Of a stretch of 64,000 nucleotides of DNA, positions 1,334-22,325 are shown in pieces. The first letter of the stretch is position 1; each line of letters opens with the position of its first letter. Location of the stretch: NCBI RefSeq assembly GCF_001044395.1, contig NZ_JANU01000016.1, positions 124,001 to 188,000 on the forward strand. Reading direction: 5' to 3'. The DNA is from Caenimonas sp. SL110 (lineage in GTDB: Bacteria > Pseudomonadota > Gammaproteobacteria > Burkholderiales > Burkholderiaceae_C). Below the pieces are notes generated by a model. It had not been told where the DNA came from. It made no database searches and was given only the letters and a program-made list of their open reading frames with translations. A program made the translations under genes and the position numbers.

Positions 1334-4300
1334 TTACTTGATGCCGATCACGTTCGAGCCGGAGTTGCCGACTGCGCGGGCGGTGATCGCGTTGTTCACG
1401 ATCGTGGTCGATCCGCCGGTGGTGCCGCCACCATTCATGCCGATCGACACGCCCGTGACCGTGGCCGTCATGCTGGCTGTGTTCAGCTGCGTGTTGCTCA
1501 CCATGGCGCTGGCCGTGTTCAGGCCGCCGGCCAGGGCGCTCATCAGCAGCGAGTTCGAAGCGCTGTTGCCATAGCTGGTTGCAGCTGCCTGGTTACCCGT
1601 GACGGTGGTCGTCGTTGCCGTTGCCGTACCGCCAACCGTGTTGCCGATGTTGGCGTACGACACGGTGGTGGTCACAGTGGCGGCGTTGTTCTGCAGGTTC
1701 AACACACCATAGGTCGGGAACACCACGCTGCCACCGATGCTGCTGTTGGCAGCGGCTTCGAGGCTGTTGGCTGCCGTGTTGCCACCGCCTTGCGCGGCGA
1801 GCGTGTTGCCGGTGACCGTGGCAGCCAGATCGTTCTGGGTGTTGCCAGCGGTGAACGGCGTGACGCCGATCGTTGCAGGGGTTCCGATCGTGCCGCCGAC
1901 CGTCGCAGTCACCGCGGTCGCACCGGTCATCCCGGAGTTCTGCGTGTTGCTGACCTGGCCCGTGCCGGTGAGCGAGCTCACTGCATTGAGCACCATGCGG
2001 TTGGTCGCGATGTTCACGTTCGAAGCAGCCAGCGCCAGGTTGTCCACCACGCCGAATGTCGTTCCACCGAAGGCGCTGTTTTGAGTCGCGCCCACCAGGC
2101 CCAGGCTGTTGGTCGTGGTCACGTTGCCGTTACCCGACTGGTTGCTCAGGATCGTGAAGCTGGCCGGAGCGCCTGCTGGCGTTCCTGCCACCGTGCTGCC
2201 AGCAGCCGCGAGGATGTTGGTCGTCACGTTGCGGCTTGCTTCGGCGTTCATGATGTTGCCGGCCACTGTCACTGGCGTGTTGTCCAGCGCGACGCCGCGA
2301 AGGCCCACGTTGGTGGTCGTCACGGTCGCGCCGATCGCGCCGCTGTCAGCCGTCTGCGTGTTGTTGACGCGGCCCGTACCGGACAGCGCACTGGCAGCAG
2401 CAAGTCCCAGCGTGTTGGTGCTGGTGTTGGCGTTGGACAGCGACGATGCACGGTTGCCGGCAACAGTGAAGCTGTTGTTGGTCGAGCTGTTGGCAAACGA
2501 GCCGATGGTGCCCACGGTCGTTGCCGACGTGATGTCACCCACTGCGGTCTGCGTATTGCGCGACTCGAAGCTGGCAGGCAGCATGGCTGCGTTGCCGGTG
2601 ACGGTTGCACCCTGGGCCGTCAGCGCATTGGTAGCCGTGTTGCGGCCTGCTTGCGACTCGACCACATTGCCTGCAACGGTAACCGAGCCAGGGACCAGGC
2701 CGCTGGTGAAGAGGCTGGAGCCAGCGCCGTTGAGGCCGTCAGGAATCGTGCCCACGGCAACGACATTGGTCGTTGCCGACAGCGTGCCGCCGGGCGAAGC
2801 CTGCGTGCTCGACACGATGCCGGAGCCCGTGAGCGTGGACACTGCCGACAGGGCCTGCGTGTTGGTCGCCTGGTTGACGTTGGCCGCAGCGCTGACGCTG
2901 TTGGCATTGACGTTGATCACGGTGACGCTCTGCGCCAGGCTCACCGGCGTGCCGATGACGCCCACTGCTGCCGTGCCAGTCACGTCGCCGGTACCCGTTT
3001 GCGTGTTCACCGTGGTGAAGCTCTGCGTCAGGCCGCCGACACCGGTGGTGCCGCCGGTCACGTTGGCACCACTGACCGTCGTGCTGTTGGTAGCGCTGTT
3101 TCGCGAAGCCTGGGCACGAACACTGTTGGCATTGACGGTGACCGTCGCGGCCGCCAGATCAGGCGCCGAGGCGCCGACCGTGGCTGCTGCAAGTCCGATG
3201 CTTGCGACATCGGTGACACCTGCGACAAACGGTGCGCCGACCGTTGCGGACACTGCGCCCGAATTGGCGTTTTGCACGTTGTTGGTGGAACCGTTGGCGT
3301 TGACGCCGGCGGTGGAAGCAATGCCCAGCGAGTTGCTGGCAGCGTTCACGCCGGCTGCAGCGAGCTGGACGTTGCCCGACACGGTGATGACGCTGGTATC
3401 GACGAGGTCGGCCAGCAGGCCGGTATGGCCTGGCAGTGCAAGAGCCGTCACGGCGCCGGTGCCGGTCTGTGCGTTGTCAGTCACGAAGTCAACGCTGTCT
3501 GCCAGGTTGCGGCCTGTGATGCCGCCACCGGTGACGGTCTGCGTGTTGGTCGCGCTGTTCTGGCCTGCGCCAGCTTCCACACGGTTACCGGTGACGGTGA
3601 CCGGCGTGTTGGTGAAGGACAAACCGTCGACCGAGATGACAGCGGTCGTCGTCACCGGCTCAGGACGCACGGTGGCAGTGACTGCACCCGAGGTGGTCTG
3701 GGTCGAGCCGATGGCGCCCGTCAGCGCGCTGGAGGCGCCGGTTGCAGCCAGAGTCAGCGTGTTGGCGGCGCTGGTGCCCTGTGCAAGAGCCGAGGCGGTG
3801 TTGCCTGATGCAATCACCGAGCTGCCGGTGAAGACCGTGCCTGGCGCCACGATGCGGATCGGCGTGCTCAGGAAGGACGATGCCGTGCCCGACTGCGTCT
3901 GGCTGTTGGCGATGCCGTAATCGGCGCTGACTGCACCTGCCGTCACACCACTGGTGACCAGCGTTGCATTGCCCGACAGCGTGCCTGAACTGGCAGTGAC
4001 GGTATTGGCAGCAACGCTGCCGGTCGCCTGGCCCTGCACGATGTTGTCGCTCAGCAAGAGGTTGCTGCCACCACTGACGGTGGGCGCAACGCCAGCCACG
4101 CGGATGCGGATGCGGCCTTCGGTCACGTTCGCGGCAACGTTGGTGCTGCTGGTCTGCGAGTTCAGGACGCCGACACCGGTCGACAGGGTCGAGAAGCCGG
4201 TGAGGTTGAGCGTGTTGGTGGCATTGTTGTTGCGGGCATCGGCCAGCATCTGGTTGCCATCGACGGTCAGGTCGGAGTCGCTCACCGTGGTTGCACCGAC

Positions 4301-7102
4301 GGCCTGCGAGATGCCAGTCGTCACACGTTGCACGAGGGCCGTGCGGCCACCGCTGACGGCGTCATTCTGGACATTGGCGATCGACAGCTCGTTGTTGACT
4401 GCGCCGGTGGCCGGGTTGATCGATCCGGTCGTGACGCCGGCAGCAGCCGAAGTCAGCGTGGAGCCGGCGGTCGCGATGCGGTTCGTCGCGTCGTTGCCGA
4501 CGGTCGAGGCAGCGACGTCGTTGTCGGTCACGTTGAGCGTCGAGCCGGTCAGTGCGCCAACGTAGGTGATGCCCACGCCAGTGACCGCAGGGCTGCTGCT
4601 GTCGATGGTGGCGTTCGCCACGCCGGTCACAACGTTTGACTGCCCGGAGGCGATCGATGCAATGGCCATTGCTGCGTTGGCAGCGGTGTCGACGTTGGAG
4701 CCGCCAAACGACACGCCGTTGTTGACGACGTTGCCACGGGTGGTCGAGGTCACATCATTGCCCGACACCGTGATGGTGCTCAGGCCCGATACGTTCGGGC
4801 TCGCGGCGGTGCCTGCGTACACCGTTGCGAAACCGCCGCCGGTGCCAGCCGACAGCAGGTTTTGGGTCAGCGAGCTGACCGAAGCGGTGTTGCTCTGGGT
4901 GCTGGCGATGCCGAATGCGGCATTGCTGGTGGCCAGGCCGGCAGCAGTGACGCTGGCCGAAGGTGTCGCGGTCAGCGGATTGCCCGGCAGCGTGAGTGTG
5001 CCGACGGTGGATCCAACCGAATTGAACGCGTCGTTGGCAACGCCACTGGAGCTCACAGCGTTGTTGGCAAGCGTGACCGTCGAGGCGCTGACTGCACCGG
5101 AGGTGATGCGGATGCCGGAGTCGAGCACCTGGCCGTTCACCGTGTTGGTGTTGATCTGCGCATTGGCAACAGTGGCTTGCGCCGTGCCGACGGAGCCGCC
5201 GAGGGCGACGACCGAGCCTGCTGCGTTACCGGTCGCGCTGCTGTCGATGGCATTGCCGTCGAGCGTCACGGTGGCACTCGTCAGGCCCACCAGCGGAACC
5301 GCTGCCGTGCCTTGCATGTTGGCTGCAACAAAGCTGCTGTACACCGTGGAGGAGACGGCGCCGACGCCGTAGTTGCCCTGCAGGTTGGACACCGAAGTGC
5401 CGCTGGTGCTGGCGACCGATCCGCCGGCAGTGATGCCTGCCGTGGCAGACGCTGCACCACCGGTTGCAGTGGTGAGGTTGGCCGACGTGATCGAGATCGA
5501 CGTGGCAGCCACGCTGCCTTCAGCCGATGCCGCAACGACATTGCTGTCCATCGTGATGGGGCGGGTAACCGCGCCGGACGTGGTGTCGCCAACGTTGACC
5601 GTGACCGATCCGAAGTTCACGGTGCCGGTGACGGAGGTGGTGTCGTTGACCTGGTTGTTGGCGGCTGCCACCGTGCCGGTGAACAGCGAGTTGGTCGCGG
5701 TGATGATGTTGCCAGCGAGATTGCCGGTCGCACCTGCCGTGACTGCATTGCCGTTGGAGGTGATGCTTCCACCGGCGCCGATGGTGTCGGCACGCGTGGT
5801 GATGACGCCGTTTTGCAGCGGCGTTGCGCCATCACCCTGGGTCTGCGAGGTGAAGTAGGTGCCCAGGTTGCCCTGGCCGTTGAGCAAGACCATGTCGCCC
5901 GTTGCCGAGGAAGTCTGGGTTGCGCCGGGGTTGGACGACGTGTTCGTGGCACCGGTGACCGCGCCGGTGAACGACATGCCGTTGGCGATGGTGATCGAGT
6001 TGCCGGCAACGATGCCGGAGCTGGTGCGCACGCCGGCCGCGTTGCCGGTGGATGTCGTGCCGACCGAGTTGTCATTGACGACCAGCGCAGCCGTCAGCGC
6101 GCGGTCTGGGCCTGCGCGGCTGGTCACGTCAGCGTTGATCTGCGAGGTGGTGACCAGGGCCGTGGCCACACCACCGGCGCCTGCGGTTTCGATGTTGGCC
6201 TGTGCATTGGTCAGCGCCATGCTGCCGGTGAAGCTCGATCCGCCGGTGGCAGCGAGCGTGTTCGTGCTCTCGTTGCCGGTGTAGGCAGCGGAGATGGAGT
6301 TGGTCGACAAAATCAGCGGGGCCGAGAGCGCCGTGGTGCTGGCGTCCAGGTCGAGCGTGATCTTGCTGGTGTCGATCGTCGAGATCGAACCGTTGCGGCC
6401 GCCCGCGTTCAGCGACACCTGGTTGGAGTTGATGCCGAGACTGCCTTGCGTGGACGTCGCCAGCGTGGTGCCGTTGTAGGTGCCGCTGACTGCGCCGTCG
6501 GTGGTCGAAACGTAGTTCGCTGGCACCGAACCGGTGATGGTCGAGCGCTGCTGGTTCAGCAGCGTTTCGGTGGCAATCGAGTTGCCGGTGACGGTGATGG
6601 TGGCAGCCGCCTGGTTGGCTGTGTCCACGCCCATGGTCACTGCCGTCTGGGCAGCGGAGTTGGTGGAAGTCAGCCCGCCCACACCGGTGCGAATCTGGCT
6701 GGACAGGATGCCTGCCGAGCCGGTCGGCTGCATCAGCAGCAGGTCGATCGAGTTGGGCTTGACGGTGTTGCCGATCGACGAGGCCGTGGTCGAGTTACCG
6801 CTCACCAGGACCGACGTGCCGCCGACCGCCGTGACATAGGTTGCCGTGACGGTGACGTTCGAGATCAAGGCGCCCATCATGGCGGCCAGATTGCTCTGAT
6901 CGTTGGGGACATACTTGTCCAGATAACCGCTGTTGGTCAGCAGCGCCGTGGTAGGAGGCGTGTAGAGGTACGTCGCCTGCTGCGCATAAGCGCTCTGCAA
7001 AATCATCGGCGTGATCGCCAAAGCAACCGCCGAAGCCATTGCTGTCCTGCGGAAACTGCTGGCCGTGGGCTGGCCCTTGCGGCCTCGTGCATTGTTCGTC
7101 AT
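1334..7102 (-). CDS. Giant secreted Asn/Gln-laddered repeat protein, candidate amyloid-like fibre or holdfast-anchor subunit
   Basis: This 1922-residue protein starts at an ATG preceded by GGAGAGAAG. It has a Sec signal peptide (basic start, hydrophobic core near residues 22-38, cleavage near SAYA-QQ). The rest is about 24 degenerate units of roughly 70-90 residues, each with a core like TVxGNxVxAxAxxNxATNxL followed by a Gly/Ser stretch and an NTQxGxVxA segment. Regularly spaced Asn and Gln and nearly no charge or Cys resemble the ladder residues of curlin-type amyloids and HfaD-type anchors. There is no autotransporter barrel, LPXTG, RTX or type I signal. The next gene upstream in the operon encodes a CsgG-type secretion pore, which suggests export through it. 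Long open frames on the opposite strand are composition shadows. Exact function is unknown; amyloid formation is inference. Confidence 0.85.
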   Translation of the reverse strand: MTNNARGRKGQPTASSFRRTAMASAVALAITPMILQSAYAQQATYLYTPPTTALLTNSGYLDKYVPNDQSNLAAMMGALISNVTVTATYVTAVGGTSVLVSGNSTTASSIGNTVKPNSIDLLLMQPTGSAGILSSQIRTGVGGLTSTNSAAQTAVTMGVDTANQAAATITVTGNSIATETLLNQQRSTITGSVPANYVSTTDGAVSGTYNGTTLATSTQGSLGINSNQVSLNAGGRNGSISTIDTSKITLDLDASTTALSAPLILSTNSISAAYTGNESTNTLAATGGSSFTGSMALTNAQANIETAGAGGVATALVTTSQINADVTSRAGPDRALTAALVVNDNSVGTTSTGNAAGVRTSSGIVAGNSITIANGMSFTGAVTGATNTSSNPGATQTSSATGDMVLLNGQGNLGTYFTSQTQGDGATPLQNGVITTRADTIGAGGSITSNGNAVTAGATGNLAGNIITATNSLFTGTVAAANNQVNDTTSVTGTVNFGSVTVNVGDTTSGAVTRPITMDSNVVAASAEGSVAATSISITSANLTTATGGAASATAGITAGGSVASTSGTSVSNLQGNYGVGAVSSTVYSSFVAANMQGTAAVPLVGLTSATVTLDGNAIDSSATGNAAGSVVALGGSVGTAQATVANAQINTNTVNGQVLDSGIRITSGAVSASTVTLANNAVSSSGVANDAFNSVGSTVGTLTLPGNPLTATPSASVTAAGLATSNAAFGIASTQSNTASVSSLTQNLLSAGTGGGFATVYAGTAASPNVSGLSTITVSGNDVTSTTRGNVVNNGVSFGGSNVDTAANAAMAIASIASGQSNVVTGVANATIDSSSPAVTGVGITYVGALTGSTLNVTDNDVAASTVGNDATNRIATAGSTLTSAAAGVTTGSINPATGAVNNELSIANVQNDAVSGGRTALVQRVTTGISQAVGATTVSDSDLTVDGNQMLADARNNNATNTLNLTGFSTLSTGVGVLNSQTSSTNVAANVTEGRIRIRVAGVAPTVSGGSNLLLSDNIVQGQATGSVAANTVTASSGTLSGNATLVTSGVTAGAVSADYGIANSQTQSGTASSFLSTPIRIVAPGTVFTGSSVIASGNTASALAQGTSAANTLTLAATGASSALTGAIGSTQTTSGAVTATVRPEPVTTTAVISVDGLSFTNTPVTVTGNRVEAGAGQNSATNTQTVTGGGITGRNLADSVDFVTDNAQTGTGAVTALALPGHTGLLADLVDTSVITVSGNVQLAAAGVNAASNSLGIASTAGVNANGSTNNVQNANSGAVSATVGAPFVAGVTDVASIGLAAATVGASAPDLAAATVTVNANSVRAQASRNSATNSTTVSGANVTGGTTGVGGLTQSFTTVNTQTGTGDVTGTAAVGVIGTPVSLAQSVTVINVNANSVSAAANVNQATNTQALSAVSTLTGSGIVSSTQASPGGTLSATTNVVAVGTIPDGLNGAGSSLFTSGLVPGSVTVAGNVVESQAGRNTATNALTAQGATVTGNAAMLPASFESRNTQTAVGDITSATTVGTIGSFANSSTNNSFTVAGNRASSLSNANTSTNTLGLAAASALSGTGRVNNTQTADSGAIGATVTTTNVGLRGVALDNTPVTVAGNIMNAEASRNVTTNILAAAGSTVAGTPAGAPASFTILSNQSGNGNVTTTNSLGLVGATQNSAFGGTTFGVVDNLALAASNVNIATNRMVLNAVSSLTGTGQVSNTQNSGMTGATAVTATVGGTIGTPATIGVTPFTAGNTQNDLAATVTGNTLAAQGGGNTAANSLEAAANSSIGGSVVFPTYGVLNLQNNAATVTTTVSYANIGNTVGGTATATTTTVTGNQAAATSYGNSASNSLLMSALAGGLNTASAMVSNTQLNTASMTATVTGVSIGMNGGGTTGGSTTIVNNAITARAVGNSGSNVIGIK

Positions 7103-7168
7103 GGCTTCTTCTCTCCTGGAGTGTTGCTTGGGGAAAAACGAAAGGGGTTAAGGAAAATCGACCGGGCT

Positions 7169-8494
7169 CTACGGAGCCACGACCATCGTGGAAACAAGCT
7201 GGTATCCGGCGCTATGCCGCGTGATCGAGCCATCGGTGGGCGATGGAACCCACGTCACGCCGATGCGGCTGGCTGCGATGCCCTTTGCAATCAGAAAGTC
7301 GGTGACCGACTTGATGCGCTGGTTGGTGAGCTCACGGCGCTGCGTGGGCGGAAGCATCTCGTTGTCGCGTGCGAGCAGGTGGAATGTCACCGGCTTGCCC
7401 TGCGATGCCTGCGCAGCCACGCGATCGAGCGCCGACTGCGAATTGACCGAGACAGCGCCGCTGGTGAAGTCGAATGGCACGAGGTTGGTGCCGTTGGTGC
7501 CGCCGGCACCCGAATTCTGCGGAACGAGTGCGCCCGGTGTCGGCTCTTCGATCTGCAATGCAGCCCCGGGCCGCGCGGCAGCCGATGGCGCTGCGACCGG
7601 AACTCCAACAGCGGCGACAGGCACGGCAGCGGGCCGTGCAGTGGCGGGAGATTCCAGGCACGGACGCGAGTCCACGCCGGCAATGGCCGAGATCAGTTCG
7701 ATCACGCCGTGCTCGATGGTTGTGCGAACGCCCAACTGCAGCGGCTCCTGGTTCTTGGTGCCAACGTTGATGTCGAGCAGGTCATTGCCGAAGAACCGGT
7801 AGACGCCCGCGCCGACTTCCTCACCGACGATCTGCTTTTGCAGGCTCACGGTGCGCGCGACGATCAGGGTGCGCGTGTCGACAATGCGCAGGTCAACGCC
7901 GATGTTCATCGTGAACGTACGGCGCTTGACGCCAACGCCCGACACAGCGAGTTCAGTGCCGTGCGAGGCGATGTTGTAGTTCAGCTCGGTGATGCCGCCG
8001 ACGATGTAGTAGCTCGAGCGCAGGATGGTGCCGCCGAAATACGGAACCCATGGCACGGCCGGCTTGCCTGCTTCGACCGCATGCTGCTTGCCGTCGCCCA
8101 GTTGGCGCCTGTCGGTGTAGGCCAGTTCGAGTTCGGCGATGCGGGTGTCGAAACGCTCCTGCAGGAGGATCGTGTCGCCCATCTTGCCCAGCGCCGAATA
8201 GATCATCAGGGCGCCGCCCTGGGTGATCGCGTTGCCTTCGTTCTGGCTGTACTTGCCGGTGTAGTCCTTGACGTCGCCCACCGCGATGGCCATCTGCGGC
8301 AGCTTGCGATCGCGCATAGTGTCGGCGATGCAGGCAAATGACGGCTCCAGCGGCGTGTAGTTGCGCCGCGCAGCCGAGCCGGTGATGACGAGCGCCTCGT
8401 CCTGCTGGAGGCGCTGGGATGGGACTGTCGTGCAGCCTGCGATGGCGAGGCAGACGCCCGCGATCGAAATGGATTTTGAGAATCGGATATTCAC
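7169..8494 (-). CDS. CsgG/HfaB-type outer-membrane secretion lipoprotein with C-terminal OmpA-like domain
   Basis: The 441-residue protein has a lipobox (LAIAGC, Cys near residue 21) for outer-membrane lipidation. The CsgG family domain spans about residues 40-285; GITELNYNIASHG, VDLRIVDTRTLIV, EVGAGVYRFF and LGVRTTIEHGVIELI align by eye with CsgG. CsgG forms a nonameric pore that exports curli subunits; HfaB does the same job for the Caulobacter holdfast anchor. After an Ala/Pro linker, residues about 335-440 read as an OmpA-like module (VPFDFTSGAVSV, LARDNEM, RRELTNQRIKSVTDFLIAKGI), which would bind peptidoglycan. Plain CsgG is about 277 residues and has no such tail. The gene lies 17 bp after the small secreted protein gene and 66 bp before the giant repeat gene, consistent with one operon. 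Confidence 0.88.
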   Translation of the reverse strand: MNIRFSKSISIAGVCLAIAGCTTVPSQRLQQDEALVITGSAARRNYTPLEPSFACIADTMRDRKLPQMAIAVGDVKDYTGKYSQNEGNAITQGGALMIYSALGKMGDTILLQERFDTRIAELELAYTDRRQLGDGKQHAVEAGKPAVPWVPYFGGTILRSSYYIVGGITELNYNIASHGTELAVSGVGVKRRTFTMNIGVDLRIVDTRTLIVARTVSLQKQIVGEEVGAGVYRFFGNDLLDINVGTKNQEPLQLGVRTTIEHGVIELISAIAGVDSRPCLESPATARPAAVPVAAVGVPVAAPSAAARPGAALQIEEPTPGALVPQNSGAGGTNGTNLVPFDFTSGAVSVNSQSALDRVAAQASQGKPVTFHLLARDNEMLPPTQRRELTNQRIKSVTDFLIAKGIAASRIGVTWVPSPTDGSITRHSAGYQLVSTMVVAP

Positions 8495-8511
8495 TGAGTC
8501 TTCCGTGTCGG

Positions 8512-9159
8512 TCAGTTACTGACCAGGGGGCCGTTGCAGGCTGTGCTACCCGCGACGCTGGACGTCTGGTAACCCTGGTTGCTCTGATTGGAATTGAGGA
8601 CTTGATCTGAAACGCCGCCGCCTGCAGCGATGGCGCCCGATGTCGAACTGGTGGATGAGCCGCTGACGCCCGAATTGAGGGCACCCGAATTACTCTGGTT
8701 GTTGCCTACGCTGCCGGCCGCCGGGTTGGCCGAGGCCAGCAGCACGCCCGGAAAGCCGGGCATCGAAACGCCGTTGGTGGCGGCGTTGGCATTGGTGTTG
8801 GCGCTGGTGGTGCCGGTGTTGGTGACCGAAGGCGACGACGTGGCCGCGTTCATTCCGTTCTCACCGGTATTACCAGCAGAAGTGGCACTCACGGCGCAAT
8901 TGAACTGTTTGTCGATGTAAGTGTTGTTCGTGTTGTTGATCGTGGTGCGGAAGGAGTCGTAGTAGCCACCCTTCTTGCGCTCGATCAGGTCGACGACTGC
9001 GCCCTTGTTGACTTTGTCCTGCGTGGTCTGGAACTGCCACGAGGCGCTTTCGCCAAAACCGTTGGCATGCACAAGGCTGGAACTCGACAGCAGCGCCACG
9101 CCAACGAGCAGCGCAGATGCCAGCGAAGGATGAAAGCCGTAGCGGTGGATGGTCATCAT
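8512..9159 (-). CDS. Small secreted Asn/Ser-rich protein, HfaA-like position (function unknown)
   Basis: A 215-residue protein with two adjacent ATG codons after an AAGG ribosome site. A Sec signal peptide ends near LVHA-NGFGESASW (about residue 32). A more ordered part follows to about residue 95 (DKVNKGAVVDLIERKKGGYYDS, with a Cys in QFNCAVS). The rest is low-complexity Asn/Ser/Thr/Gly with NNQSNSG and NSNQSNQG repeats and a second Cys near the C terminus. Such Asn/Gln-rich secreted proteins beside a CsgG-type pore are typical amyloid subunits, nucleators or adaptors. Gene order (small secreted protein, CsgG-like pore, large repeat protein) mirrors hfaA-hfaB-hfaD. I do not recognise a named domain, so homology to HfaA is positional inference. 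Confidence 0.75.
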   Translation of the reverse strand: MMTIHRYGFHPSLASALLVGVALLSSSSLVHANGFGESASWQFQTTQDKVNKGAVVDLIERKKGGYYDSFRTTINNTNNTYIDKQFNCAVSATSAGNTGENGMNAATSSPSVTNTGTTSANTNANAATNGVSMPGFPGVLLASANPAAGSVGNNQSNSGALNSGVSGSSTSSTSGAIAAGGGVSDQVLNSNQSNQGYQTSSVAGSTACNGPLVSN

Positions 9160-9197
9160 TGCCTTACAAATATCCGGTGACGGTTACAACGAGTTTC

Positions 9198-9226
9198 ATT
9201 CTGTGACTGGTCTTGACTCGGGTCAA
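9198..9226 (-). promoter_or_regulatory. Sigma-70 type promoter of the repeat-fibre operon
   Basis: Reading the minus strand, a -35 TTGACC (complement of 9221-9226), a 17-nt spacer and a -10 CAGAAT (complement of 9198-9203) lie just upstream of the small secreted protein gene. The predicted start leaves a leader of about 30 nt. Confidence 0.5.
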
Positions 9227-9362: not shown

Positions 9363-10097
9363 CTATTGCTGTTGCATGACCAGGGGCTCGACAAGGGTCG
9401 TGTAGTGGCGCTGCGCCAGTAGCTGCTGATGGGAGCCTTTGCCCTGCGAATCGACGGTGCTGTAGATCAGGCCCAGCTCCTGGTGCGTGGGCACGAAGCG
9501 GTGCCTTGCAGGATTGAATTGCGATGCAATCGCGAGCGAGTACGCAATCGGACCGGTCATGCGCCATACGCCGTTCCTGCCGACTCCATCGCGCAAGGCG
9601 TCGTACTTGTCGATATTGCGCAACACCGAGCGGATCACCGCTCGCAGATACGGGTGCCCGGGCTGCGCAATGATGTGCCACTGCTGGAACTCGCCTCGGG
9701 CCAGCTGCTTCAACTCAGGATGCAGGCCATAGCCAGCGTACGCCTGCGAGCGGCGATTGGGCCACTGCGACAGCACGAACCGGTCACCGGGCAGCACCAC
9801 CTGGTCGAGCGGCCGCATCGCAGAACTCTTGACGTCCAGGTAGACGCCGCCCTGGAGGTACATCAACGCATAGCGAAAGAGGTCCGCCCGGGCGGGACCG
9901 TAGTCGGGGTTGATGCGAAAGAACGCCGTGCGGATCTCGGGCGGGCACTGCTTCCTGATGAAGGCGCCCACCGCCGCGTCGTCATAGAAACGGTAGTCCC
10001 AACCCGGATTGCTGCGCTGCAGGTCGCGCACACCGGACGCGATGGCAGCAGGGAGGCGGGCCGTTGAATGGGTCTGGTGAAGGATCCTGGGAATCAT
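9363..10097 (-). CDS. Glycosyltransferase with GT32/Och1-like DXD sugar-binding domain
   Basis: The 244-residue protein begins MIPRILHQTH, the usual start of this family. The frame is open further upstream, but that part runs antisense into the TRIC gene and lacks family features, so the ATG at 10097 was chosen. The DXD region is visible as ADLFRYALMYLQGGVYLDVKSS (given here as ADLFRY and YLDVK, about residues 70-95); the Asp pair binds the metal and nucleotide sugar. TGPIAYSLA near residue 185 is another conserved block. Members transfer hexoses to cell-surface glycans or glycolipids. No signal peptide or membrane segment is visible. It is divergent from the TRIC gene (64 bp apart). Acceptor and donor cannot be read from the sequence. 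Confidence 0.8.
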   Translation of the reverse strand: MIPRILHQTHSTARLPAAIASGVRDLQRSNPGWDYRFYDDAAVGAFIRKQCPPEIRTAFFRINPDYGPARADLFRYALMYLQGGVYLDVKSSAMRPLDQVVLPGDRFVLSQWPNRRSQAYAGYGLHPELKQLARGEFQQWHIIAQPGHPYLRAVIRSVLRNIDKYDALRDGVGRNGVWRMTGPIAYSLAIASQFNPARHRFVPTHQELGLIYSTVDSQGKGSHQQLLAQRHYTTLVEPLVMQQQ

Positions 10098-10870: not shown

Positions 10871-11572
10871 ATGAACATCACCGACATCCTGGCGCAGGCC
10901 GGCGGCCTTCAATCGGTCGCACGCGACCTCGGCATCAGCGAGTCACAGGCAGCCTCGGGGGCTGAAGCACTGTTGCCGGCCATCCTGGGCGGAATGAAGA
11001 AGCAGGCGCAGGGCCAATCGTCGGACCTGGGAGGGCTCGAAGCACTCGGCGGTCTGGGCGGCCTTGGCGGACTGCTGGGGCAACTGGGCGGAGGCGGACT
11101 GCTCGATCAGGTCCTGAGCCCGCAGCCCACCGACCCAGCCCCGGGCAATGACGTGCTGGGCCAGATCTTCGGCTCTAAAGATGTGAGCCGCGCGGTCGCC
11201 GCCGACGCTGCGGCGAAGTCCGGCCTGGACAGTGGCCTGCTGCGCAAGATGCTGCCTTTGCTGGCGATGGTGGTGACAGGCTACATGGCCAAACAGCTCG
11301 GCGGTGCTGCGCGGGCCCAGCAAAGCGAGGGCTCGGGCGGTGGCTTGGGCGAACTGCTGGGAAGCCTGGGCGGTTCAGGCGGACTGGGCGGCCTGGGTGG
11401 GCTGGCTGGTGCACTTGGCGGCGCGCTCGGGGGAGGCAACGCGGGCGCAGCACCGGCCCAGGGCTCCGGCGGTTTGGGCAGCCTGGGTGGGCTGGCTTCG
11501 ATGCTGGACATGAACGGTGACGGCAACGCGCTGGACGACATCCTGCGAATGGCCGGCAAGCGCAGCGCATAG
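10871..11572 (+). CDS. DUF937 (YidB-like) protein, Gly/Leu-rich
   Basis: A 233-residue protein. An upstream in-frame ATG at 10853 exists, but AAGGAG sits 6 nt before the ATG at 10871, which fixes the start. The N terminus (DILAQAGGLQSVARDLGIS, SGAEALLPAILGGMKKQ) is the DUF937/YidB domain. It is interrupted by Gly/Leu-rich low-complexity runs (GGLGGLGGLLGQLGGGGLL and a second long one at about residues 150-215) and has a single conserved block VSRAVAADAAAKSGLD, KMLPLLAMVVTGYMAKQ near residues 105-145. The function of YidB proteins is not established. Its stop codon TAG overlaps the GTG start of the sulfotransferase gene by one base. Confidence 0.8.
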   Translation: MNITDILAQAGGLQSVARDLGISESQAASGAEALLPAILGGMKKQAQGQSSDLGGLEALGGLGGLGGLLGQLGGGGLLDQVLSPQPTDPAPGNDVLGQIFGSKDVSRAVAADAAAKSGLDSGLLRKMLPLLAMVVTGYMAKQLGGAARAQQSEGSGGGLGELLGSLGGSGGLGGLGGLAGALGGALGGGNAGAAPAQGSGGLGSLGGLASMLDMNGDGNALDDILRMAGKRSA

Positions 11573-12237
11573 TGGATACAACCGCGCGAGGTAACCCGGT
11601 CGCGCCAGCCGGCGCCGCACTTCCGTACGTCTTCGTGATTGGCTTCAACAAGACGGGCACCACATCGATCGATGGCTTTTTCAGGGCCAACGGATTTCCG
11701 TCCATTCACTGGGGCAACAACAGGCTGGCCGCGCACATGTTTGCGAACTGCCTGCAGGGCCGCCGCGCGCTGGAAGGCTACGACCAGTCCTTCCGAGTGT
11801 TCTCCGACATGGTCTATCGCACGCGCCGGGCCTGGTTCGAGGGCAACTCGCTGTTCCGCACGATCGACGCCGACTATCCGGGCTCTTACTTTCTGTACAA
11901 CACCCGCCCGATGGAGGACTGGCTCGCCAGCCGCGAGAAGCATCGGGGCGCGATGGTGGGCGAATCCCTTCTTGGCTTTTACCTGCGCTACCTGAAGACG
12001 CAGGATATTCAGGTGGTACGCGACCACTGGCGGCGCACGCGCGAGCATTTCGAGCAGGAAATCCGCGCCTACTTCAGCGGTAACCCCAGGTTCATGGAGA
12101 TCAGCATCGACGACGAGGATTTCGCATCGAAGGTGTCGTCGTTCATCGGCGTCCCGCTGGATGGGGCGCACTGGGTGGCTCGCAATGTGACGCCGGGGTG
12201 GCTGCGGGCACCGGCAGCTTCCGTGACTGATCGATGA
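11572..12237 (+). CDS. Sulfotransferase family protein
   Basis: A 221-residue protein with a GTG start overlapping the preceding stop by one base. GFNKTGTTS near residue 24 is the 5'-phosphosulfate-binding loop of PAPS-dependent sulfotransferases; FRANGFPSIHWG follows, as in the prokaryotic family. A 3'-phosphate loop region is visible around YDQSFRVFSDM. The C terminus (FMEISIDDEDFASKVSSFIGVPL) is typical of bacterial members acting on glycans or other surface molecules. It is followed after 3 bp by an FkbM methyltransferase, so the two probably decorate the same substrate. The substrate is not readable from the sequence. Confidence 0.75.
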   Translation: MDTTARGNPVAPAGAALPYVFVIGFNKTGTTSIDGFFRANGFPSIHWGNNRLAAHMFANCLQGRRALEGYDQSFRVFSDMVYRTRRAWFEGNSLFRTIDADYPGSYFLYNTRPMEDWLASREKHRGAMVGESLLGFYLRYLKTQDIQVVRDHWRRTREHFEQEIRAYFSGNPRFMEISIDDEDFASKVSSFIGVPLDGAHWVARNVTPGWLRAPAASVTDR

Positions 12238-12240
12238 TTG

Positions 12241-13038
12241 ATGCTTGAGACGATCACCAGCCGCGCCGTCAAGTTGCGCCGGAACATTCCCCTGTACTTG
12301 CGTACCTTCGGCCTGAGGGGCTTGCTCGCGTTCGCCTCCATGCGGTATTTCGGGTCGCGCGAGCCGCATCGTCTCTTTTTGCGCGGCAACCCGCGGCCCA
12401 TCTGGGTGCGTCCGGAGAGCACCGACTTTCTGACCTTCAGGGACATCTTCGTAGACCGCGAATATGCATTCGAGCTGGGCGACGGGCTGCGGCTGATCGT
12501 CGATGCGGGCGCGAATGTCGGTCTGGCCGCCATTTACTTCGCCAACGCATTTCCCCAGGCACGCATCATCGCGATCGAGCCCGAGCACGAGAACTTCCTG
12601 CTCCTGCAGAAGAACATAGTGGGCTATCCGCAAATCGTCGCAGTGGAAGCCGCGCTCTGGTGGCGCTCGGGCCAGATCCACCTGACCGACCCGGGTCGTG
12701 GCCAGCATGGTTTCATCACGCGCGACGACGCGCAATCGGGCAGCGGCGGTGCGGACGTGGGACTGGTTCGCGCCGTGTGCATCGAAGAGCTGCTCGCAAC
12801 GCACGGCGTGGACCAGATTGACCTGTTGAAGGTGGACATCGAGGGCTCGGAGAAGGAAGTCTTTGAAGCTTCGCAGGGATGGATCGACCGGGTGTCGGTG
12901 GTGATCGTCGAACTGCACGACCGATTCAAGCCTGGGTGCGCCGCCGCCTTCGCGCAGGCGACACGTGCGATGGTGCCGGTTGCCGAGCGCGGCAAGGTGG
13001 TGGTCAAGGCCAGGGCGGCTTATCCCGGCAAGGCGTAG
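12241..13038 (+). CDS. FkbM family SAM-dependent methyltransferase
   Basis: A 265-residue cytoplasmic protein. The frame opens with TTG at 12238 then ATG at 12241; the ATG is preferred. SAM-binding motif I is LIVDAGANVGLAAIYFA (about residues 85-101), followed by ARIIAIEPEHENFLLLQKN, and the FkbM block IDLLKVDIEGSEKEVF (about residues 197-212) with VVIVELHDRF behind it. FkbM enzymes O-methylate sugars or polyketide hydroxyls. Its tight link to the sulfotransferase suggests joint modification of a surface polysaccharide. Confidence 0.85.
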   Translation: MLETITSRAVKLRRNIPLYLRTFGLRGLLAFASMRYFGSREPHRLFLRGNPRPIWVRPESTDFLTFRDIFVDREYAFELGDGLRLIVDAGANVGLAAIYFANAFPQARIIAIEPEHENFLLLQKNIVGYPQIVAVEAALWWRSGQIHLTDPGRGQHGFITRDDAQSGSGGADVGLVRAVCIEELLATHGVDQIDLLKVDIEGSEKEVFEASQGWIDRVSVVIVELHDRFKPGCAAAFAQATRAMVPVAERGKVVVKARAAYPGKA

Positions 13039-18540: not shown

Positions 18541-21500
18541 TTACATCCAGCCGAAATTGGCCGCAGTGACCGTGCCCTCGACGCCCGTCAGCAAGGCCAG
18601 CTGGACGGCTGCTGCAGGACCGGTTCCATCGGCATCGTACTTGAGCACTCCGGTGGCCGGGTCGTAGAGTATCCGGTCCCCGGGTTCCAGCGCATCCGGC
18701 CCCAGGACCAGGGAGTTCACAAACCATTGCCCGGGCGCACTCCTGGGGATGTTGTATTGCAGACGGCTGAACTCGATGACGTCCTGGGACGCGTCAAACG
18801 ACTCAATAGTGTCAAATACACCGGCGACGTTCTTGACGTCCATGATGAACCTGTCTGCGCCGTTACCGCCGATCAGCACATCGGAACCCGGCCCGCCGTA
18901 CAGCGAGTCGTTGCCGTCCCCACCCACCAGCGTGTCGTTGCCGTCCTTGCCCTTGAGCGCATTGGCCATCGCATTGCCGACCACCAGGTTGTCAAGGTTG
19001 TTGCCCGTGCCCGACCGGGCCGCGCCGACCAGGATCAGGTCCTCGACGAAAGCCGCACCATCGAGTGTGAAGTCGGTGCTTGCGATGACCGTGTCGTGGC
19101 CTCCACCGAGGTATTCCGTTGGCTTGTCGGACCTTTCGCCAACCAGATAGTGGTCGTCACCATCGCCCCCGATCAGCTTGTCCCCGGATTTGTCGCCAAA
19201 CAGCCAGTCATCGCCTGCACCGCCGTCCAGCACGTCCTTGTAGATCGAGCCGATCAGGTACTCGTCCTCGTCGCTGCCAGCCAGCCTACCGCCCGTCCTG
19301 GCCACCCGCAGGACCAGCAGGTCGTCGGGCGGCACCGTGCCGTACATGACCTCGCTCACGCTGGAGATCACTTCCTCGTGGGCGCCCCAGCCGTCGGTGT
19401 AGGAAGCAACCACGCGAATGTAGAGGTCTTGCTGAGCCGCGCCCAGTGTCAGCGCGCTGCCTGTCCCTGCGCTGATGTCGGCCCATCCGTCCATGCCATT
19501 GACTGACTGCTGCCACTGCAGGGCGATAGCGCCCATTCCATCCTCGTCGGTGATGCTGGTCACCGCATTGACAGTGGAACCCGGCGCGACCACTCCACGG
19601 ATCGTCACGCCGCCCACCGGTTCATCGTTCGCGTTCGCAATGGGCCCGGCTGCGGTACTCGCGAACACTTCGGCAGTGCCGTGGCCGTCTGTGTATCGAA
19701 CCTCGAACGAGACTGTCTTGTCCACCTGCGCCTGCCCCGGCGTGAAGATCGATCCGGTGGCGCCTTCGATTTCCTCGCCACCGGCCATCCATTGCACGGT
19801 CAGGTCGGCATCGGAGAATCCATCGACATCGGTGAAGCTGAAAACCGCATGAAGGTCCTCGCCCTGCACGAGCGGGTTGGCAACAGAGGCCGTACCGGTG
19901 GGCAACTGGTTGACGTTGAGGACCGGGCCTTCGTCGTCCGAGGAATAGATGGCTTCTTCGGCGCCGAAGTCGTCGGAGAAGGTCACCCGCACGGACATGT
20001 ATGCGTCCACGTCGTCGTCAGTCAGGGTGTACGAGGTGCCAGTGGCGCCTTCGATGTCTGAGCCATCGCGCATCCACTGGTAGTTCAGCCCACCGGCGTC
20101 GAAGCCGTCTTCGTCTGTGACGTGCTGAACGGCATGGAGCGTCTCGCCCTCTTTGGCCAGGCCGCTGATACCGATGTAGCCTTGGGCGTCATCGTTGACG
20201 TTTTCGACTGTAGCGTCCGGCAACACGAACCCCAGCACCGACTCATGATTGCCCAGGTCATCGTCGAAGCTGATCTCCACGCGAATGAACTTGCCGACTT
20301 CATTTTGCGTGAGCGTGACGCTGTCGCTGTATGCGCCGGCAATCTCCACACCATCGGCCAGCCACCTGAAGCTGTAGACCGCGCCGGTGAGGCCGTCGGC
20401 ATCGCTGAATCCGAAGTCGGTCAGGGTCAGGGTGCCATCTTCGACCAGGTCACCGACCACCGTCGAGAATCCGCTGGGCGGGTGGTTCGGCATTCCGATC
20501 TCGGTCGGGGCGCTGGTGACGGTTTCATCCTCGCCAAAGTCGTCCTGGTAGCTCGCAACCACCTTGATTGCGGCGCCGGTATGAGCGCTTGTCAGCAGGA
20601 ATGTCGATGTGATCGCACCGTCGATCACGACGTCATCCGAGAGCCACTGGAAGGTCACTTCGCCCGGGTCGAAGCCATCTTCGTCGCTGAACTGGATGAC
20701 CGCCGTGAGCGTCGAGCCCGCCGACGGGATTCCAATGATTCCGAGCTGGCCATCGGGCAGGTCATTCACGTTGTGCACGGCATCGCGCGGCACTTGGCTC
20801 GAAACACTCTCAGGGGTGCCATGGCCGTCGATATAGCTCACCGTCACGGACAGCTGCTGGCCGACCTGGGCCTGGCCGGGCGTGAACGACGCTTCAGTGG
20901 CTCCGTCGATCGGTTCTGCGCCTGCGTACCACTGGTAGCTGAGCGGGCCCAGGCCATCATCGTCGCCGAGCGAACCTGTTTCAGCGTAGAGCGTCTCGCC
21001 TTCCGAATCGGCGAAGTCGAACGCGTCGGTGCCGCTGATCGTGACGGTACCGGTCAGGGGGTCATTGGTGTTGTCCACCCAGGCCGAGTCGCTGCTCGTG
21101 ACCGACTCGGACGTACCGAACCCATCGACGTAATCGACGCGGACCGTGATGAGGGTGCCAACCTGGGCTTCGGTAACGGTAAAGGTGGCGTCAGTCGCGC
21201 CCGCAATCTCAGCGCCATCGGCCAGCCATTGATAGTAGATAGTGCCCAGACCGTCGAGGTCATCGAGTGCATCGACGCTCGCCGTCAGCAGGTCGCCCTG
21301 CTCCACGTGGCCGGCGACGATCGTGGTGAAACCTGGATAGCCTGCAGGGGCGTCGTTCTGGTTCTGGACTTCGACCGAATCGGTGCTCCAGAACGACTCG
21401 GCTGCACCATCGCTGTCGGTGTAGGTCGCCCTCAGCGAAATGGTCGCACCGATCAGGGAGGCATCCAGGGAGACGTTGTCACCGGTGCCCAGCAAATCGG

Positions 21501-22200
21501 AGCCTGCATACCATTCGAACGACACGTTGGACTCGTCATAGCCATCCGAGTCGTCGATCCACAGGTTGGAGGCGTAGAGCGTCGAGTATTCCGTGGCCTC
21601 GCCAGCAAAGGTGATGTCGACGGTGCCATCTCCCGCATGGTTGGGGCCGATCGCGATCACAACGGGCGGGCTGGTGATCCGCTCAAGGTTGCCGTAGTTG
21701 TCGGTGAACGAGACCTCGACGGTCAACTCGCCTTCGTCCATGCGTTCGGTGGGCACGTACGAATCCCCGGTCGCGCCTTCTATCAACAGTCCGTCCAAGT
21801 ACCAGGAATAGCCGAGCGTGGTCCAGTCGGGTCCGTCTTCATCGTCAAGGCCCGTGCTTCCGGCCCAGACCGTGAGGCCTTCCTGGACGACGCCATCGAC
21901 GCTGGCCGAGCCCGTCGCGTCATCATTCAGATTGGTGACGGCTTCGGACGGAGAGCTCAGGACATAGGCGTCTTCGCCGTTCCCGTCGCGGTAGTAGGCC
22001 TGCGCCGTAATGACCCGGCCCACTTGCGACTGGGACAGCATGACCCACTCCCACTCGGCGCTGGTTGAGGTGAACCACTCTCCGTCAGCGTACCAGTCGA
22101 TGTAGTCGATGCTCGCGACCCCATCTGGGTCGCTCACATCCGCCGATAGTTGACCGTCCTCTTCGAACAAGCCAGAAATTGAAATACTGCCGAGTGCCAT
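18541..22200 (-). CDS. Large RTX exoprotein with ten Ig-like repeats and C-terminal calcium-binding repeats
   Basis: A 1219-residue acidic protein without Sec signal peptide; GAAGGAGCG precedes the ATG at 22200. Residues 1-950 are ten repeats of about 90-100 residues, each starting near NVNDxPxGxVxI, then DEDGx, YQWLADG, GATxxxxTxTxAQVG and VSYxDGxGTxESV. Such Ig-like modules are common in type I secreted adhesins. From about residue 985 come RTX nonapeptides (GGAGDDWLFG, GGDGDDHYLVG, GKDGNDTLVGGDGNDSLYGG) that fold on Ca2+. The last 100 residues are the expected type I secretion signal, ending in a hydrophobic tail. It probably functions as a secreted or surface adhesin. No HlyB/HlyD/TolC-like genes are in this window, so the transporter is elsewhere. 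Confidence 0.87.
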   Translation of the reverse strand: MALGSISISGLFEEDGQLSADVSDPDGVASIDYIDWYADGEWFTSTSAEWEWVMLSQSQVGRVITAQAYYRDGNGEDAYVLSSPSEAVTNLNDDATGSASVDGVVQEGLTVWAGSTGLDDEDGPDWTTLGYSWYLDGLLIEGATGDSYVPTERMDEGELTVEVSFTDNYGNLERITSPPVVIAIGPNHAGDGTVDITFAGEATEYSTLYASNLWIDDSDGYDESNVSFEWYAGSDLLGTGDNVSLDASLIGATISLRATYTDSDGAAESFWSTDSVEVQNQNDAPAGYPGFTTIVAGHVEQGDLLTASVDALDDLDGLGTIYYQWLADGAEIAGATDATFTVTEAQVGTLITVRVDYVDGFGTSESVTSSDSAWVDNTNDPLTGTVTISGTDAFDFADSEGETLYAETGSLGDDDGLGPLSYQWYAGAEPIDGATEASFTPGQAQVGQQLSVTVSYIDGHGTPESVSSQVPRDAVHNVNDLPDGQLGIIGIPSAGSTLTAVIQFSDEDGFDPGEVTFQWLSDDVVIDGAITSTFLLTSAHTGAAIKVVASYQDDFGEDETVTSAPTEIGMPNHPPSGFSTVVGDLVEDGTLTLTDFGFSDADGLTGAVYSFRWLADGVEIAGAYSDSVTLTQNEVGKFIRVEISFDDDLGNHESVLGFVLPDATVENVNDDAQGYIGISGLAKEGETLHAVQHVTDEDGFDAGGLNYQWMRDGSDIEGATGTSYTLTDDDVDAYMSVRVTFSDDFGAEEAIYSSDDEGPVLNVNQLPTGTASVANPLVQGEDLHAVFSFTDVDGFSDADLTVQWMAGGEEIEGATGSIFTPGQAQVDKTVSFEVRYTDGHGTAEVFASTAAGPIANANDEPVGGVTIRGVVAPGSTVNAVTSITDEDGMGAIALQWQQSVNGMDGWADISAGTGSALTLGAAQQDLYIRVVASYTDGWGAHEEVISSVSEVMYGTVPPDDLLVLRVARTGGRLAGSDEDEYLIGSIYKDVLDGGAGDDWLFGDKSGDKLIGGDGDDHYLVGERSDKPTEYLGGGHDTVIASTDFTLDGAAFVEDLILVGAARSGTGNNLDNLVVGNAMANALKGKDGNDTLVGGDGNDSLYGGPGSDVLIGGNGADRFIMDVKNVAGVFDTIESFDASQDVIEFSRLQYNIPRSAPGQWFVNSLVLGPDALEPGDRILYDPATGVLKYDADGTGPAAAVQLALLTGVEGTVTAANFGWM

Positions 22201-22325
22201 AAGCGCTCCTTCGCATTTGCGTAACAATCTGTAGAGAATGTCAGCGAAGGTGAAGCTATGCAAGAGGATTTGCAGCGCCGAATGGCGTACGCCAGGCCGT
22301 GGAACCTGGTTGGCTGCCTGCGGAT

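Follow-up and report, generated by a model that had tools for sequence, protein, structure and literature searches.

A CsgG-family gene triad of Caenimonas sp. SL110 and its relatives, probably a surface-display system apart from curli and the holdfast anchor

What is built by three adjoining genes of Caenimonas sp. SL110 that join a CsgG-like pore to a giant repeat protein? The genes lie on the minus strand of a 64,000-nucleotide stretch of contig NZ_JANU01000016.1 (positions 124,001–188,000), here referred to as the window, whose own numbering is used below. They follow each other in the order small secreted protein, HfaB-like protein and giant repeat protein, with gaps of 17 and 66 bases (Table 1), and third-position guanine-plus-cytosine content backed the coding status of all three. 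A first-pass annotation, made from the sequence alone, had taken them for one unit making a surface system of curli or holdfast type. The open reading frames (ORFs), the short gaps and the recurrence of the arrangement in other genomes bear out the single unit; the CsgG/HfaB pore and the secreted, all-beta-modelled giant lend partial support to the surface system, whereas membership in either known type had to be given up. The amyloid-like adhesive fibre suggested there is still an inference. It is probable that the triad as a whole is a CsgG-family surface-display system, neither curli nor holdfast anchor, which works by the mechanism proposed below.

The second protein, annotated at the outset as a CsgG/HfaB-like pore, matched Pfam CsgG with 67.3 bits (cut-off 20.8) and the NCBIfam model holdfast_HfaB with 232.6 bits (E 4.6e-69), short of the 300-bit equivalog cut-off of that model. 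One CsgG match in the genome exceeded the Pfam cut-off, and another, elsewhere, fell below it (18.4 vs 20.8). The lipobox IAGC was seen by eye at the N-terminus, as previously annotated, and its Cys21 is nearly invariant among 34 aligned HfaBs. Structure prediction, which the annotation had proposed as a check, gave a CsgG fold for the pore domain and an OmpA-like fold for a C-terminal domain that had gone unreported. OmpA-like domains bind diaminopimelate through an Asp and an Arg. In the aligned HfaBs, Arg393 is present in 34 of 34 and Asp377 in 28 of 34, one residue off the Pal register.

The giant starts with a Sec-type signal sequence (by eye) and is built from about 20 units, diverged and variably spaced, each roughly 70–90 amino acids (aa) long, with an Asn/Gln ladder and the core GN...AxAxGNxAxN, the last unit carrying a GN motif. 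The original count of about 24 laddered repeats agrees with 24 N-x-Q motifs, and profile searches bore out the repeats as such. The family repeat profile, whose training included the giants themselves, gave 21 matches, of which 19 reached 8 bits or more; a second profile, built solely from 23 sphingomonad giants and serving as the independent test, gave 20 matches in the window giant and none in 400 shuffles or in the reversed sequence. On comparison with three relatives, the units of the window giant showed no one-to-one pairing and their best partners were scattered; the unit identities are rough, since short segments were compared with free end gaps, a weakness exposed by their maximum of 100%. 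No Pfam or NCBIfam family was found for the giant at E≤1, nor any Pfam family for the one relative's giant that was scanned whole (L021; L and G numbers denote loci and genomes), and searching PDB sequences with an alignment of the giant gave 0 matches. The C-terminal 460 residues were predicted to be all-beta (predicted local distance difference test 82, predicted template modelling score 0.79), and when this model was realigned to 133 PDB chains, to which the ranking is limited, the curli subunit CsgA ranked best.

The small protein also begins with a Sec-type signal sequence by eye. Its family shares the motif WQFxTxxDKxN...IEKKxxGYY...RQxNC...SP...LNSxQxNxGxQ..V..C, and in an alignment of 25 members Cys88 and Cys208 are invariant and one or two curlin-like SxQxNxG stretches are conserved. 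Neither Pfam nor NCBIfam held a family that matched it at E≤1. The best hit of a PDB sequence search (E 0.14) was judged to be chance, and the 25 proteins gave only single-member, chance-level matches to NCBIfam, none of them HfaA.

The wide recurrence of the triad, likewise missing from the first-pass annotation, was seen in a scan of GTDB genomes with an HfaB alignment, which yielded 390 relatives. The best 80 were kept, having been picked by HfaB alone, by similarity to the window's HfaB. A small-protein profile was built from 25 small proteins of these loci, and their giants had served to train the repeat profile, at least 4 unit matches counting as a downstream repeat protein. Among these best 80 of 390, a small-protein homologue lay upstream in all 80, the OmpA-like domain was present in 74 and a repeat protein followed in 67. 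For the 70 loci with room on both sides, the corresponding numbers were 70, 66 and 66, with all three features in 62. The repeat-protein counts take in L091 (454 aa) and the split L038 (582 aa), and the 67 also L044 at a contig end, whereas L074, where the giant's frame stops after 432 aa, was scored as having no giant. Most giants span 980 to 2792 aa, some of these lengths being too high because of where the start was placed. The carriers belong to Comamonadaceae (Variovorax, Limnohabitans, Ramlibacter, Polaromonas and Xenophilus), Alcaligenaceae and sphingomonads, and include two Caulobacteraceae metagenome-assembled genomes (MAGs), Aureimonas, Halomonas, Pseudoxanthomonas, Pseudotabrizicola and others; contig titles indicate two copies in twelve genomes among those listed. 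The small protein, the OmpA-like domain and the giant were all absent from 17 CsgG/HfaB rows, of holdfast type and others (L116-L125, L129-L134).

This linkage bears on whether the giant is a beta-helical adhesin that leaves the cell by two-partner or autotransporter secretion, with HfaB-OmpA as a mere neighbour. The beta-helix adhesins pertactin, UpaB and PfbA would resemble it in their long parallel beta structure and in surface location, which is presumed for the triad. However, the triad shows no autotransporter family match and is linked to a CsgG-type pore, the repeat protein following HfaB in 66 of 70 loci, and the Pfam and NCBIfam scans of the window giant and the Pfam scan of L021 were empty. 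Such an export route therefore seems very improbable.

In an HfaB tree, the small-protein rows, 80 in all (77 scan loci, the window, L126 and L127), formed one side of a branch with a support of 100/99, and in a second tree without long branches 78 such rows stayed together (100/100). Nine holdfast rows stood apart in both (80/89; 94/65). The first tree omits duplicates and partial sequences (L001-L010, L012, L024, L064, L085, L093-L115, L128, L135, L136) and the second additionally L072, L078, L123-L125 and L129-L132. The betaproteobacterial HfaBs fell into at least three separate groups, namely the window with Limnohabitans, the Alcaligenaceae, and Variovorax/Xenophilus/Polaromonas, the last adjoining Croceicoccus and a Novosphingobium MAG. 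Within the window's genus, an HfaB match came up in only 5 of 37 genomes. Both findings fit a history of horizontal transfer and loss. The holdfast_HfaB profile matched 20 of 397 genomes of a phylum sample at E≤1e-20, 11 of them above the cut-off; in a class sample of 274 it matched 1, the genome of the window. Four genomes of the genus that lack an HfaB match were compared to find a clean empty site, but only a YicG-like gene aligned (in one, together with a small neighbour), so that no insertion boundary could be drawn.

A few loci departed from this layout. In the alphaproteobacterial MAGs L086, L088 and L089, one titled Rhizobium and one Sphingomonadales, the small protein and HfaB-OmpA are kept and a different secreted-looking protein of 404-464 aa follows HfaB; that of L086, the one scanned, had no Pfam family. 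Two further loci lie outside the 80. In L010 (9252-11063, minus strand), near a contig end, the HfaB N-terminus is in frame with the giant's end, by assembly error or deletion. L011 (9468-11713, minus strand; genome G039), of the same order, has small secreted-looking proteins next to an HfaB that scores 297.5 bits with the holdfast_HfaB model, against a cut-off of 300; no repeat giant was found beside it, and perhaps it is a minimal HfaB system.

Is the triad then a form of curli? With curli it shares the CsgG-fold pore and a presumably exported repeat protein modelled as all-beta. The profiles for CsgE (PF10627) and the curlin repeat (PF07012), however, had no match at E≤0.01 in nine genomes, the window's own included, with a positive E. 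coli control for each, and on this absence curli membership was rejected. The first-pass annotation had also reported no CsgE or CsgB, which these searches support; CsgF and CsgD were not searched for. The triad further differs in its single giant chain, its other small partner, the OmpA-like domain on the pore, and units of roughly 70-90 aa against about 23 for curlin repeats (PMC10192328). The giant had been called several times longer than CsgA, which holds for an ordinary CsgA but not as a novelty, as PMC10192328 describes CsgA homologues in which curlin repeats number as many as 62, and left-handed solenoids, such that length alone is not new. An earlier source (PMC3521004) gives up to 22 repeats and many CsgG paralogues outside curli operons. 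On these accounts, a long solenoid passing a CsgG-type pore is plausible and not unprecedented.

The triad may instead make a polymerising functional amyloid, where the small protein nucleates and the giants join end to end into curli-like fibres, a reading which agrees with ours apart from polymerisation. The top rank of CsgA, the Asn/Gln ladders and the SxQxNxG stretches of the small protein would suit it, but the units are diverged and variably spaced, unlike regular curlin repeats, the genome has no CsgE or curlin-repeat match, and a solenoid of 1922 aa is already long without polymerisation. We regard it as unlikely, though the most serious of the alternatives.

The second known system to be weighed is the Caulobacter holdfast anchor HfaA-HfaB-HfaD, in which the precise function of each part is unknown (PMC6707917). 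It has the same order small-HfaB-large (the small-protein gene takes the position of hfaA), a pore of the HfaB family, secreted Asn/Gln-rich partners and short common motifs; by eye, Caulobacter-type HfaD has NxQxN and AxAxGNxA stretches and a GN-type C-terminus. Thus the triad might be a diverged hfaABD, its small protein being HfaA and its giant an expanded HfaD, in a complex that anchors secreted polysaccharide and is no adhesin itself. The HfaB score would agree with this, as would the glycosyltransferase, sulfotransferase and FkbM methyltransferase genes upstream in the window. However, the profile search that had been proposed together with structure prediction found no match to the curlin repeat, HfaA or HfaD: 0 of 25 small proteins matched holdfast_HfaA and 0 of 38 giant C-termini holdfast_HfaD at E≤1, nor did the window giant, whereas the Caulobacter-type controls scored 134.8 bits (HfaA, E 1.7e-39) and 367.5 bits (HfaD, E 8.8e-110). 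The few unrelated NCBIfam matches of these sequences, the best being to a diphthamide protein (E 0.0046) and a beta-lactamase (0.015), were judged to be chance. Profile-profile comparison with hhalign gave 9% probability for the small protein against HfaA, over 21 columns round NSxQxNxG, and 1.5% for the giant against HfaD as whole profiles. On the unit level, 200 of 553 giant units compared with 32 short-type units scored 12.6, above the column-shuffled null (mean 5.5, maximum 9.5 in 100), but the match covered 13 columns at 3.5% probability. We took this likeness for a shared motif and rejected direct giant-HfaD homology. The partners differ in kind as well: the large one is mostly 980-2792 aa against about 415-490 for the HfaD type, and the small one is set apart by two Cys and by its own conserved N-terminus, while the triad's HfaB adds the OmpA-like domain and sits in another clade. 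Among 41 genomes of the genus, a search found the glycosyltransferase in 1, that of the window. On the NCBIfam profiles, hhalign and the HfaB tree we rejected membership in the holdfast anchor, with HfaB kinship left standing, and the holdfast-type system of the first-pass annotation is not supported; the diverged hfaABD strikes us as improbable. Taken with the curli markers, the profile and hhalign results indicate that the pore family is the same and the system different.

For this separate surface-display system we propose the following course. HfaB-OmpA would assemble into an oligomeric outer-membrane pore, a ring braced by its C-terminal domains, which would bind peptidoglycan. The giant would cross the inner membrane by Sec, pass unfolded through the HfaB pore and, once outside, fold its roughly 20 diverged units into a long beta-solenoid rod, held at the pore; such a rod, a stack made of one chain, may be likened to part of a curli fibre. 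The small disulphide-capable protein would be exported alongside and act at the pore as base, cap or nucleator. The likely task of the system would be attachment or matrix building.

Detailed understanding of CsgG-type export comes mainly from curli. If the proposal is true, a widespread sister system that has a single giant substrate, an OmpA-like domain on the pore itself and no CsgE match would show with how few parts such export can manage, what size of chain gets through and by what means the pore could be fixed in the envelope. Searches of open-licence PMC papers gave no description of the triad among the papers listed. With somewhat less than even confidence we would go further and see in it a third CsgG-dependent class, defined by a peptidoglycan-tethered pore, a giant single-chain beta-solenoid, in effect a fibre specified by one gene, and a small two-Cys base or cap, and spread horizontally across Beta-, Alpha- and Gammaproteobacteria, partly beside conjugation genes; specialists may well regard it in this way. 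As it occurs in genera with cultured strains (Variovorax, Novosphingobium), it is directly testable.

Table 1. Positions of the triad, its domains and related features
Feature	Sequence	Positions	Strand	Remarks
Small secreted protein	window	8512-9159	-	215 aa
HfaB/CsgG-type outer-membrane lipoprotein with C-terminal OmpA-like domain	window	7169-8494	-	441 aa, GTG start
CsgG-like pore domain of HfaB	window	7646-8359	-	residues 46-283
OmpA-like domain of HfaB	window	7172-7498	-	residues 333-441
Giant secreted repeat protein	window	1334-7102	-	1922 aa
C-terminal 460 residues of giant, all-beta model	window	1337-2716	-	structure prediction
PG_binding_1-type homologue at OmpA-less locus	L080	15029-15646		
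PG_binding_1-type homologue at OmpA-less locus	L081	8069-8665		
PG_binding_1-type homologue at OmpA-less locus	L092	15700-16392		

Several kinds of neighbouring gene were found at the relatives' loci; in the window's ORFs and family scans, no EAL-type, PG_binding_1-type or VirB-type neighbour was seen beside the triad. In 12 of 80 loci, the surroundings of the triad code for a homologue of a small secreted protein whose PG_binding_1 domain was checked in L071 and L072. This homologue stood beside the giant in 3 of the 8 small-protein loci whose HfaB had no OmpA match, two of the 8 being cut by contig ends, which hints that wall binding may there be supplied in trans. VirB8/9/10/6-type conjugation genes were located upstream of the triad in 7 to 10 loci, one representative of each being checked (VirB8/VirB9-type: L049, L053, L054, L055, L056, L066, L067, L073, L087, L091), and conjugative elements may be carrying some of the copies.

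A protein related to an EAL-annotated one, with its midpoint 1.9-3.3 kb before that of HfaB and thus shortly upstream of the small protein, was present in 17 of 80 loci, from Variovorax, Xenophilus, sphingomonads and one further MAG (L064 and L065 are near-identical records). Some cyclic di-GMP-type neighbour occurred in the stored flank of 22 of 80 loci, both counts being raw figures with no background rate set; EAL matches per genome ranged from 0 to 11 in seven carriers, G001 having four, one beside its giant. On the Variovorax plasmid CP063168, one gene separates the EAL-annotated gene (L137, 6360-7472) from that of the small protein. By eye, no E-x-L stands at the expected place in its product, which may therefore bind cyclic di-GMP rather than cleave it, to judge from this motif. 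The giant of this plasmid is annotated as 'S-layer family protein' and its HfaB as 'hypothetical protein'.

In the window, a gene with a FimV N-terminal-type domain is convergent with the triad and ends at 1238. Upstream, on the same strand as the triad, lies the glycosyltransferase (Gly_transf_sug family; 9363-10070, minus strand), followed further upstream by the sulfotransferase (11572-12237) and the FkbM methyltransferase (12238-13038), which suggests a strain-specific polysaccharide island. The window holds a second large ORF (18541-22263, minus strand), whose 1240-aa product, probably a secreted protein, carries RTX calcium-binding repeats towards the C-terminal end (50.6 bits in Pfam).
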